Shown piece after piece: positions 23,121 through 26,599 of a stretch of 64,000 bases of DNA (its first letter is position 1; each line of letters begins with the position of its first letter). The notes under the pieces are model-generated. The model was not told the origin of the DNA, did not search any database, and saw nothing but the letters and a program-made list of their open reading frames with translations. A program made the position numbers and the translations under genes. Source of the DNA: Bacteroidia bacterium (GTDB lineage Bacteria; Bacteroidota; Bacteroidia; CAIKAF01); contig JACVCJ010000006.1 of NCBI GenBank assembly GCA_016742095.1, forward strand, positions 1-64,000. Direction: 5' to 3'.

Positions 23121-24383
23121 ATGAAAGGGTTTGCCTCTATACTTTTCTGTTTTGTATGTGTTGTACAGGCTGCAACGGCTCAGTTTGCGGGCTGGGGAAC
23201 GTACGACAGTACCAATTCGCCCCTGCCTTCGTCTTTTATAACCTCGGTGGCCATCGACGGCGATAATGTGGTATGGGCCGGTACCAACAAGGGTCTGGCT
23301 TCGTTCCGCGAGTTGCTGCAATGGGACGTATATACTACGGCAAACACCAATCTGCCCGATAACTGGATATCCAGGGTAAAGACCGATCCTGCGGGAAATG
23401 TGTGGGTAGGTACGCTGAATGGTGTGCTGGCCCGTTACAACGGCAACAATACCTTCACGGTCTTCGATGCGTCGAATTCGCCGCTGGGGGCCTTCTGCGT
23501 GACGGATTTTGTATTCGAGGGCAGCACCGTGTGGGTGAGTACCGAAGGCGGAGGCGTGTTCCGTTACAACGGCAGCTGGTCGGGCTACAACAGCCAGAGC
23601 CTGGGACTACCGCTGGACGTGGCACTTTCGGCAGCCATCGACGGGCAGGACCGTAAGTACTTCGGTACGGCCAACGAGGGGGTTTTCCGGCTCTCGGGCA
23701 ATACCTGGACGCGTATTTATACGCTGAATACCAATCTGCCCTACGATAATATCCGTGCGATAACGGTAGAGAACGATACGGCCATATGGTTCGGGATCGG
23801 GCAGCAGGTGAACGACAGTTGTCTTACCCGTTACGACGGCAGCCAGGTTACTATTTTCGACAGTCTTACGGCATCCGGTTTCCCGATGCGCAACATACGC
23901 CACATATACACGGACGGCAGCGGCAACAAGTGGATCGCTTCGAACAACGACGAGGAAGGCGGCCTTTTCCTGTACAACGATACAACGTTCCGGGTGTTCC
24001 GCGAATTTGCCTCGGGACTGGCTTCGAACCGGGTATACGAAAGCGTGATGGACGACAGCAGTAACCTCTGGGTGGCTACTTTTCGCGGCTTGTCTGTGTT
24101 TAACGAGAACAACCAGTACCTGTCGGAAGAGGGACCGGCTTCCGCGGCCCAGTTTGTAAAGGCCTGGCCGAATCCCGCCACGGAAGAGCTCCGTTTCGAA
24201 CTTCCACAGAACGGCAGCTATACATTCGATATGCTGAATGCCACGGGCAGCACGCTGCGTTCCGAACGTCTACAGGCCGAAGGTACGGTGCTGCTGGATA
24301 TACGTAATTTGCAGCCCGGCATTTATTTTATGCGTTTTTCAGGAGAAGAACAGCGATATTTGCTGCGTTTTGTAAAAATGTAG
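23121..24383 (+). CDS. Secreted beta-propeller (two-component-regulator propeller repeat) protein with type IX secretion sorting tail
   Basis: Repeats such as DPAGNVWVGTLNGVLARYNG and DGSGNKWIASNNDEEGGLFLYN; C-terminal KAWPNPATEELRFELP...LQPGIYFMRFSGEEQRYLLRFVKM. Confidence 0.85.
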   Translation: MKGFASILFCFVCVVQAATAQFAGWGTYDSTNSPLPSSFITSVAIDGDNVVWAGTNKGLASFRELLQWDVYTTANTNLPDNWISRVKTDPAGNVWVGTLNGVLARYNGNNTFTVFDASNSPLGAFCVTDFVFEGSTVWVSTEGGGVFRYNGSWSGYNSQSLGLPLDVALSAAIDGQDRKYFGTANEGVFRLSGNTWTRIYTLNTNLPYDNIRAITVENDTAIWFGIGQQVNDSCLTRYDGSQVTIFDSLTASGFPMRNIRHIYTDGSGNKWIASNNDEEGGLFLYNDTTFRVFREFASGLASNRVYESVMDDSSNLWVATFRGLSVFNENNQYLSEEGPASAAQFVKAWPNPATEELRFELPQNGSYTFDMLNATGSTLRSERLQAEGTVLLDIRNLQPGIYFMRFSGEEQRYLLRFVKM

Positions 24384-24385
24384 AA
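24348..24385. repeat. Left copy of perfect 38-bp direct repeat
   Basis: GAACAGCGATATTTGCTGCGTTTTGTAAAAATGTAGAA, identical to 26147-26184; encodes EQRYLLRFVKM-stop of the upstream CDS. Confidence 0.97.
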
Positions 24386-24449
24386 TCAGCAACAGGACGA
24401 ATAAAAGTTCTTTTATCAGTAGTAAAAAGAGTCTGCATACTTATTTTAG

Positions 24450-24480
24450 CATGGACATTTTGTCTATGCATTTGTCCATG
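24450..24480. repeat. Palindromic unit 1 (31 bp)
   Basis: CATGGACATTTTGTCTATGCATTTGTCCATG; 8-bp arms CATGGACA/TGTCCATG. Confidence 0.85.
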
Positions 24481-24512
24481 CGTAGCGTCAATTACTGGAA
24501 CATTGGGGAGAG

Positions 24513-24543
24513 CATGGACACAATGTCTATGTGTTTGTCCATG
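24513..24543. repeat. Palindromic unit 2 (31 bp), imperfect copy of unit 1
   Basis: CATGGACACAATGTCTATGTGTTTGTCCATG; 26 of 31 positions match unit 1; starts are 63 bp apart. Confidence 0.85.
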
Positions 24544-24547
24544 TTCA

Positions 24548-26065
24548 TCATTTAGGAGGATACACGTACCTGTAATTATTAGACCTTGGCGCTTCTTTGT
24601 TATCCGCAACTAATCCAAGCTTTTTAAATTTGGATAAATGCCTGTAAGCTTTCTTATCATCAAATCCGAAACGTGTGGCATAATCCTTTTTAGAAACAGT
24701 TCCCAGACTTTTTACCCAATCAAAACCTGCCAGTTCTTCTCTATTTAATCCTGCAAGTTTTTCGTTGCCGGGAATATCTTTCAAAGCATTTATACTTCTT
24801 GAAAAGGTAAGGGAGAGATAAGGCGCCTGGTAACTATATACCGGCATCGGAAGATGAAAACGATCCTGCATATTCCTGAACGTTTCCATTCCGAGGCCTG
24901 ACTCTTCCATCCATCCCATTTTGTTAAAAATGTAAGCTATTTTCGGATTTCGGTTGAGCGAAGGGGCCCGGAAGTCTGTTACTTCTTCCAGTGTTACAGG
25001 CGAAACAGGCTGCCCAGGACTTTTAATGACGATCCGGGTATCATCAATTTCTATGAAAATTTTAGCGCCCAATAATTCATAATCTCTATGAATGATAGCA
25101 TTGATAACAGCTTCTCGCAACGGTTCCAGCGGAAATGTTAAATCGAAACTTCTCCTGAATTTATTTCGGATCACTTCAGAATGCAGAACTTTTGTCAACC
25201 AGGTTTCTACCTGTTCCGGGATAAGAACAAGCGGTCCGTCAAAGTCTTGCGAAGAAAACGGATTATTGCCGTATTTAACTTTTGCCTTAATGACTGCCTG
25301 AGGATACTTTTCACGTGCATTATGACCAAACAGCAGCAATCCGAATCCGGTGGGGATGTAACGGTTGTTTACCTTTTCCGTGAGACCAATTCGTTCAAAA
25401 TGGTCCCAGAGTTCGTCAAAGTCTATATTGAACGGTAATCCAGATCGTTTAATGTAAAAATCCAGGGCTTCCCGGGAAAAATAGCTGAGTGCAGCAGAAT
25501 AATCCGGTTTTTCCAGCGGAGAGAGTGTTACGATTTCATCCCGGATAACTGCCTCAGCCCGTTGAATAGCCTGTTTTAAAAAATCCCGGTTTGCTTCTTC
25601 GATCTGACGCTGAAATTCCGGATAAAACATATGTACGGTAATGCCATTATCCTGGAGAAATTTAATGCCTTTACGGTCTACATCCGGATCCGGGTCTTCA
25701 ATACCGATCCATACTTCCTTTATTCTTGCATTTACGATGCGTTCGGCACAACCGAGCTTTGGATGCTTTCTGGCTCCGGGTGCACAAGGCTCCAAAGTGG
25801 CAAAAAGTATACATCCGTCTAACGCTTCTGAACGTTTTTTCCGTTCAAGTAGCGTATATTCAGCATGATCGCCGAGCCTTAGCTCACCCCGGCAGGCGGT
25901 TTCCGTTGTGCCGTCCGGTTTAAGAAGTACTGCCCCGACTTTGGGACTTATTTTAAGATCGGGTCTTGATTCAGCTACGGATGTTTTCATCACATCGATA
26001 GCCATTTGCATATAAACAGCAGGATCCATAGATCCCTTACGGGTTGTTGACGGTGATTTTGGCAT
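24548..26065 (-). CDS. Nucleotide/RibD-type deaminase fused to RecG-like/HATPase_c_4 region and C-terminal winged helix
   Basis: DHAEYTLLE + TLEPCAPGARKHPKLGCAERI zinc-deaminase motifs; PLEPLREAVINAIIHRDY...IVIKSPGQP...GWMEESGLGMETFRNM (GHKL/HATPase_c_4-like); C-terminal VSKKDYATRFGFDDKKAYRHLSKFKKLGLV wHTH-like. Confidence 0.85.
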   Translation of the reverse strand: MPKSPSTTRKGSMDPAVYMQMAIDVMKTSVAESRPDLKISPKVGAVLLKPDGTTETACRGELRLGDHAEYTLLERKKRSEALDGCILFATLEPCAPGARKHPKLGCAERIVNARIKEVWIGIEDPDPDVDRKGIKFLQDNGITVHMFYPEFQRQIEEANRDFLKQAIQRAEAVIRDEIVTLSPLEKPDYSAALSYFSREALDFYIKRSGLPFNIDFDELWDHFERIGLTEKVNNRYIPTGFGLLLFGHNAREKYPQAVIKAKVKYGNNPFSSQDFDGPLVLIPEQVETWLTKVLHSEVIRNKFRRSFDLTFPLEPLREAVINAIIHRDYELLGAKIFIEIDDTRIVIKSPGQPVSPVTLEEVTDFRAPSLNRNPKIAYIFNKMGWMEESGLGMETFRNMQDRFHLPMPVYSYQAPYLSLTFSRSINALKDIPGNEKLAGLNREELAGFDWVKSLGTVSKKDYATRFGFDDKKAYRHLSKFKKLGLVADNKEAPRSNNYRYVYPPK

Positions 26066-26078
26066 AAGTGTTGGGTAA

Positions 26079-26120
26079 CTGAATTACAATATACAAAATA
26101 AATTGCCTGAAATTACAATA
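26079..26120. promoter_or_regulatory. Paired direct repeat upstream of the deaminase-fusion gene; possible operator
   Basis: CTGAATTACAATA (26079-26091) and CTGAAATTACAATA (26107-26120); shared AATTACAATA copies 29 bp apart, 14-55 bp upstream of the minus-strand start at 26065. Confidence 0.4.
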
Positions 26121-26146
26121 CGTCCAATAATAGGTTTTAACATACG

Positions 26147-26184
26147 GAACAGCGATATTTGCTGCGTTTTGTAAAAATGTAGAA
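26147..26184. repeat. Right copy of perfect 38-bp direct repeat
   Basis: Identical to 24348-24385; immediately upstream of the thioesterase start at 26189. Confidence 0.97.
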
Positions 26185-26188
26185 GCGT

Positions 26189-26599
26189 ATGTTTGAATTT
26201 ACGGCACAGCGACGGGTAACCTACGGCGAAACCGATAAAATGGGCTATTTATATTACGGGCATTATGCCGAATATTATGAAACGGGCCGCGTAGAGGCAT
26301 TCCGCTCCATAGGCCTGGTGTATAAAGAACTGGAGGAAACCGGGATCATCATGCCCGTGCTGGAACTGCACTGCAACTACCACAAACCGGCTTTTTACGA
26401 CGATATGCTCAGCATCCGCACCATGCTGCCCAAATACCCCGACGGCGTAAAACTGTACTTTGAATACGAGATCCGTAACCAGGAAGGTACCCTGCTGAAT
26501 ACGGGAAATTCCACGCTTATCTTTTTTAACGTGGCCAACCGTAAACCGGTCCCGGCGGCGGAGATCATGGGCGAAAAACTGGCCCCCTTCTTTACATAG
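26189..26599 (+). CDS. 4HBT/YbgC-type acyl-CoA thioesterase
   Basis: RRVTYGETDKMGYLYYGHYAEYYETGRVEAFR hotdog-fold motif. Confidence 0.9.
   Translation: MFEFTAQRRVTYGETDKMGYLYYGHYAEYYETGRVEAFRSIGLVYKELEETGIIMPVLELHCNYHKPAFYDDMLSIRTMLPKYPDGVKLYFEYEIRNQEGTLLNTGNSTLIFFNVANRKPVPAAEIMGEKLAPFFT

Follow-up and report, generated by a model that had tools for sequence, protein, structure and literature searches.

The twin palindromes directly behind the deaminase-fusion gene in the window (the whole 64,000-nucleotide stretch of DNA analysed here) are best explained as an array of cognate double-stranded DNA sites for the wHTH domain of that gene's own product, a reading to which we assign a probability of about 0.68. 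That the wHTH binds this array at all is the firmer prediction, and is likely to be correct. Conservation of the array in 22 of 22 homologous loci, its phasing, the covariation between its arms and the wHTH, and the joint movement of gene and array are all documented at the level of sequence. The same arrangement follows every relative found, although the docking sequence differs among loci, which suggests that the protein moves and evolves together with its site.

The distal (24450–24480) and proximal (24513–24543) units were found exactly where the original prediction had placed them, with starts 63 bp apart; 4 nt separate the end of the proximal unit from the stop codon of the gene at 24548–26065 (minus strand). 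Both units lie on the minus strand, and their layout relative to the gene is direct–direct–inverted. On the gene-sense strand, half-site A of the proximal unit (CATGGACA, 24536–24543) is followed by the gap AACA, half-site B (CATAGACA, 24524–24531), the gap TTG and the inverted half-site C (TGTCCATG, 24513–24520); in the distal unit, the same half-sites A (24473–24480), B (24461–24468) and C (24450–24457) are separated by AATG and AAA. The two units are 85% identical over 33 nt. The single G-U pair previously ascribed to the inner arm pair exists only if the plus strand is read; on the gene-sense strand, this position is an A·C mismatch. Consistent with the earlier view that the units do not resemble terminators, no terminator was called at either of them (criterion: a GC-rich hairpin with a T tract), and no sigma-70 promoter was called at the units.

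A genome-wide search for further copies (3.7 Mb, up to 3 mismatches) returned only the two units in the window, and the three-arm pattern had no match in Markov-model copies of the window (5 × 64 kb); the twin units are therefore real and specific rather than part of a dispersed repeat. The inner palindrome alone has one more occurrence in a regulon search of the genome (C20:17236), where it lacks the third arm. Classification as a REP/REPIN element or MITE was rejected, as there are two genomic copies only and no dispersed multicopy family. Twin short palindromes do superficially resemble REP pairs, but with just two copies in the genome and arrays standing in register at all 22 homologous loci, the idea that chance or a dispersed REP- or MITE-like repeat happened to fall beside the gene has a negligible probability, and can be regarded as already refuted.

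The presumed array binder is a protein of 505 amino acids that combines a RibD-like deaminase domain (25571–26014, about residues 18–165), in which the HAE and PC...C zinc motifs are conserved among homologues, a HATPase_c_4 domain (24803–25069, residues 333–421) and a C-terminal wHTH (24557–24745, about residues 441–503), where the covariation with arm sequence resides; all are encoded on the minus strand. The full-length AlphaFold model has a mean pLDDT of 61 with a poor middle, and was used for the deaminase and wHTH ends only. Within it, the wHTH is predicted at pLDDT 86–94, and its recognition helix (about residues 470–482; 24620–24658, minus strand) is placed with high confidence.

The deaminase fold is intact, and its more distant fold matches include APOBEC-group nucleic-acid deaminases, some of them solved with hairpin DNA, which could suggest that the deaminase acts on the hairpin loops, these then serving as a self-editing sensor or timer. 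This is very improbable: both the closest folds and the closest sequences are those of RibD, whose substrates are small molecules; the loop sequence varies (TTG, AAA, TAG, TCA, CCA, AAG and others); and arrays also accompany relatives that have an AlbA_2 domain instead of the deaminase.

A total of 22 fusion-gene loci were gathered from Bacteroidota-type genomes; the inserts of the deaminase subfamily that were examined are chromosomal only. Every one of these loci keeps an array directly after the stop codon, and neither loss of the palindromes nor decay of the arms was seen. The first unit starts 0–40 nt after the stop; there are usually two units and sometimes three or more (at least three in each of L056–L059), and in L060 the twin units are present after the true stop. 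The distance from unit to unit is normally 61–63 bp, with 72 bp in L061. Segments right after the homologous genes matched in 17 of 22 cases at two mismatches or fewer, against 0 of 264 control segments from related loci. No unit occurs within 400 bp upstream of any homologous gene, where isolated half-sites with one mismatch are all that was found, and half-sites are absent from the 3' part of the fusion genes. Searches of viral contigs gave no match to the fusion protein, and searches of plasmids and phages gave none covering 80% of it.

The spacing from half-site A to half-site B is 12 bp in the GGACA class and 11 bp in the CGCCA class, and in L061 every half-site falls on a multiple of 12. 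The arm core varies by locus (GGACA, CGCCA, GCGACA, CCGGCA or CCGCA), with the arm sequences CATGGACA, CTTGGACA, TCTGGACA, TCCGGACA, AAGGGACA, CTCGCCA (L005), CGCGCCA, TCGCGACA, TTCCGGCA and ATCCCGCA represented. Half-sites agree inside a locus, the exceptions being L003, L004 and L049, which carry extra downstream units of another type. In L003 (1290–1540), five consecutive units of three arm types (CTTGGACA, TCTCGCCA and CATGGACA) lie between the fusion gene and hsdM; these mixed units are perhaps scars of earlier modules with other specificity. An orphan twin CATGGACA/CTTGGACA array with a 63-bp period but without a deaminase gene was observed in L036/L048 (G061:C49:81396–81485; about 9393–9490 in L048). 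In G061, it borders a type II restriction–modification (RM) cassette composed of an HTH protein, two cytosine methylases and a probable endonuclease, and tblastn detected no remnant of the fusion (deaminase) gene near it.

The arms change together with the domain that is predicted to read them. In a set of 20 loci, distances between arms correlate with those between wHTH domains at r = 0.69, compared with 0.39 for the deaminase and 0.41 for the middle part of the protein. The partial correlation between arms and wHTH is 0.60 once the remainder of the protein is accounted for (permutation P = 2 × 10−4, with half-sites picked by eye and the 20 loci treated as exchangeable, which ignores remaining phylogenetic structure), whereas that between arms and the rest of the protein, controlling for the wHTH, is 0.04. 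Along the protein, the partial correlation reaches 0.53–0.56 at residues 457–479 and 0.50–0.54 over the wing, and is 0.17 or less just before the wHTH (residues 403–455). Physical linkage alone is insufficient to account for this, because the equally linked spacers between units correlate with the wHTH at only 0.35, and the correlation between arms and wHTH stays at 0.66 when spacers are controlled for. Mutual information computed column by column between arms and protein mainly reflected phylogeny and was left out. The recognition helix reads 'KKAxRHL' in GGACA loci and 'RTAERxLKK' in CGCCA loci. Loci L044 and L047 differ in deaminase subtype but are nearly identical in wHTH, array and the following dprA-like gene, as expected if wHTH and array form a functional module. 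The joint variation of site and recognition helix makes the loci a natural specificity code that is testable by helix swaps.

Among the roles first proposed for the palindromes, that of a cassette-borne site for protein binding has good support from the presence of arrays in 22 of 22 loci and from the covariation of arms and wHTH, whereas a regulatory RNA structure is disfavored. Pairing between arms A and C on the sense strand comprises 273 Watson–Crick pairs, 7 G·U, 6 A·C and 10 other combinations, and the mismatches of the transcribed strand over both pairings amount to 19 G·U, 20 A·C and 29 others. The lack of a G·U excess, together with the fact that unit orientation can flip (in L007 and L045 the unit is reversed relative to the gene), points to a double-stranded DNA array, not an RNA. 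Some toxins are paired with repeat-containing RNAs, and transcribed 3' hairpins could in principle act as an RNA antitoxin, an mRNA stabilizer or an unusual terminator controlling the deaminase. Indeed, the units fold better than shuffled sequence; however, they do so on both strands (z = −3.4 to −4.0), as is expected of any palindrome. Some relatives have direct repeats only, or repeats within the coding region, and are unable to form these hairpins. No Rfam family scored above its gathering threshold at the units, where only snoRNA and miRNA noise appeared below thresholds, and no terminator was called there. The arms, moreover, track a DNA-reading helix. Control through an RNA hairpin is thus improbable, and is largely refuted already.

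Phased repeats are not confined to the deaminase subfamily. In the 200 bp after the stop codon of 30 HATPase_c_4 genes outside it, 190 exact 7-mer repeats were counted at lags of 5–40, with 11 as the strongest single lag; shuffled sequences gave a mean of 17 (maximum 34), and the 5' flanks gave 26. Repeats phased at 10–13 bp, whether downstream of the stop codon or within the coding sequence ahead of the wHTH, occur in 19 of the 30 loci, compared with 3 of 30 mid-gene segments and 2 of 30 5' flanks, and three such repeats were found at none of 151 unrelated gene ends. In some of these genes, in-frame repeats with a lag of 12 lie just before the wHTH and are read as linkers such as GGQDGGQD, AIDRAIDR, TVNDTVND, ISGGISGG and VTEGVTEG; in-frame 12-bp repeats translated into four-residue linkers were seen in L026, L034, L067, L074–L076, L083, L088, L089, L098 and L103. 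Such repeats probably represent binding arrays of this type embedded within the reading frame. Among relatives carried on plasmids in other phyla, TTGGGCAA repeats occur in Rhodothermus, and Azotobacter and Parabacteroides have the linkers RLES and ERVN. Because HATPase_c_4 relatives carry such analogous phased repeats, the twin palindromes are read as one version of a family-wide habit, in which phased half-sites are fixed at the wHTH end of the gene.

Two of the plasmid-borne relatives show further features. On a Streptococcus respiraculi plasmid (L096:2050–2200), a head-to-tail run of at least 15 copies of TTTATTGTAG begins immediately behind the stop codon of an AlbA_2/HATPase_c_4 gene and precedes an integrase gene. 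In the Rhodothermus relative L094 (protein at 1216–1971), the wHTH (residues 194–242 of the protein) gives a sub-threshold match to Pfam Phage_rep_O (E = 2.6 × 10−4), a family of initiators that have their iterons within their own gene.

In the window, gene and array together make up an inserted module that is wider than the originally delimited feature, although the two units within it stand as described: it spans 24386–26146 (1,761 bp; GC content 0.42 versus 0.51 for the window) and is bordered by an exact (100%) 38-bp direct repeat on the plus strand (24348–24385 and 26147–26184). The left copy forms the end of a complete plus-strand host gene (23121–24383), which encodes regulator-propeller repeats and a T9SS C-terminal sorting domain and is convergent with the cassette gene; the right copy is a duplicate of that gene end, and beyond it lies a plus-strand thioesterase (4HBT_2) gene (26189–26599). 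None of the 15 other family genomes searched contained the host gene flanking the insert. The final 8 bp of the inserted module (AACATACG, 26139–26146) are the reverse complement of host positions 26186–26193 (CGTATGTT) past the right repeat, and because these two segments stand on either side of it, the right 38-bp copy lies within a short inverted repeat (window 26139–26193) that might be a clue to the mechanism of insertion.

Longer target duplications, 82–95% identical, are found elsewhere: 42 bp in L044 (nested in 220 bp), 61 bp in L047, 53 bp in L052, 57–104 bp of the hsdR start in L057–L059, and 265 bp in L061. In both L044 (637–3880 region) and L047, the module stands where a DprA-like gene begins, and a diverged fragment repeating the first ~30 codons of that gene lies upstream; in L044, this repeat is nested in the 220-bp duplication (93%) beside a T9SS-tail gene. 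One AlbA_2-type relative without a deaminase (L073) has a 117-bp duplication, and most AlbA_2-type loci have none. Gene and array evidently move jointly as one module. For RM systems, insertion accompanied by 'long and variable target duplications' has been reported (PMC3031569), and insertion of RM genes with long target duplication is the subject of Nobusato et al. (Gene 259:99, 2000), as cited in PMC3874152 and PMC3031569.

As for the suggested recombination or maturation site, the target duplications show that the cassette has moved, but nothing ties the palindromes themselves to a recombination step. One alternative is that the array constitutes the end of a mobile element, bound by the protein, alone or with host factors, to move the gene, with the long duplications as the footprint of the reaction. 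Gene and array are exactly what is inserted in the window, long and variable duplications recur at the loci listed above, L073 among them, and in G061 an array without its gene marks the edge of a type II RM cassette. However, no matching array exists at the 5' end of the module; no recombinase, transposase or nuclease domain was found in the inserted module, nor any integrase in the cassette; unit orientation flips in L007 and L045; most AlbA_2-type loci lack a duplication; and similar duplications have been reported for RM genes without such an array (PMC3031569). A mobile-element end is therefore rather unlikely.

Many of the modules are housed in defense loci, with neighbors whose RM assignments are read from their sequences rather than from a profile search. 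The module is preceded by hsdM–hsdS and followed by hsdR in L007, and is accompanied by hsdS and hsdR in L050; the downstream neighbor is hsdR in L056–L059 as well, hsdM in L003, and a dprA-like gene in L044 and L047. Type IIG-like methylases adjoin it in L004, L005 and L045–L047. Among annotated relatives, a cyanobacterial one lies between hsdS and hsdR, and others are in BREX loci. In the window, L051, L053, L054 and L061, by contrast, the module stands alone among host genes. The array precedes RM genes in L003, L007, L050 and L056–L059, but not in the window, L045, L046 or L049.

On the preferred reading, that of a cognate DNA array, each unit of ~31 bp would offer three half-sites, two of them direct and one helical turn apart and the third inverted, on which the wHTH would load cooperatively; loading as a cooperative oligomer is suggested by the separation of the two units by about six helical turns. 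The bound complex might then exert local control over the defense locus that usually houses the module, a step we hold with less confidence than binding itself. Given binding, local control of the operon is the first-choice consequence, at roughly even odds: the array lies between the gene and hsdR, hsdM or a dprA-like gene in many loci, so that its role would be that of a C-protein operator, except that it follows the regulator gene. Such control cannot be general, because the next gene is convergent in the window and on the other strand in L045, L046 and L049. Classical autoregulation is unlikely since there are no sites at the gene's own promoter, and the Bacteroidota −7/−33 promoter motif occurs in the arrays at expectation, without enrichment.

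A platform role and mobility share the remaining probability, given binding. As a platform, the array would template oligomerization of the protein on DNA and thereby switch its enzyme domain. Either a platform or a movement role would explain why solitary modules retain the array; in the window, the module was inserted singly among host genes, together with its array and with a 38-bp target duplication. A more far-reaching and speculative proposal, which we consider unlikely, is that throughout the defense-linked family with AlbA_2 or deaminase, HATPase_c_4 and wHTH domains, a specificity-matched 3' array is an obligatory working part, for example, an assembling, licensing or moving platform, so that gene and array would form a self-contained nucleoprotein module spreading by insertion with long target duplication. 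If true, this poorly explained kind of insertion would gain a protein and a cis site.

Each of three elements is already known on its own: protein–operator pairs, iterons located within initiator genes, and insertion accompanied by long target duplication. In the open-access literature searched, no description was found of a specificity-diversified array fixed 3' of a whole defense-linked family. The C (control) proteins of RM systems and their paired palindromic operators have been reviewed (PMC3874152). Like them, the present protein is an HTH protein from a defense locus for which cooperative binding to paired repeats, here predicted from sequence, and specificity groups can be described. 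However, the operators of a C protein are part of the C-gene promoter, whereas the present array comes after the gene, keeping register with its stop codon, and the protein also has an enzyme domain. Replication initiators such as phage lambda O and those of RepA_N plasmids have iterons inside or next to their own gene. They share with the family described here a winged-helix-type protein locked to a helically phased array, and relatives here even translate the repeats as a linker; by contrast, the cassettes are chromosomal, show no sign of an origin or of replication and have a different domain set, with only one relative giving a sub-threshold Phage_rep_O match. RM genes inserted with long duplications are comparable in that a defense-type gene is flanked by a long, variable target duplication and the insert lacks a recombinase, but the gene here is not itself an RM gene and consistently carries a 3' array. 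The closest parallel in architecture is provided by SLFN_AlbA_2/HATPase_c_4/wHTH proteins (COG2865-like, DIP2311-like; solved relative 3lmm), which share the HATPase_c_4 and wHTH domains, phased repeats at the wHTH-encoding end, and RM or BREX neighborhoods. In the present subfamily, a RibD-like deaminase replaces the AlbA_2 domain, and twin direct–direct–inverted units stand in place of simple direct repeats. Common, uncharacterized RM- and BREX-linked proteins gain a predicted DNA target that can be read from the genome beside each gene.
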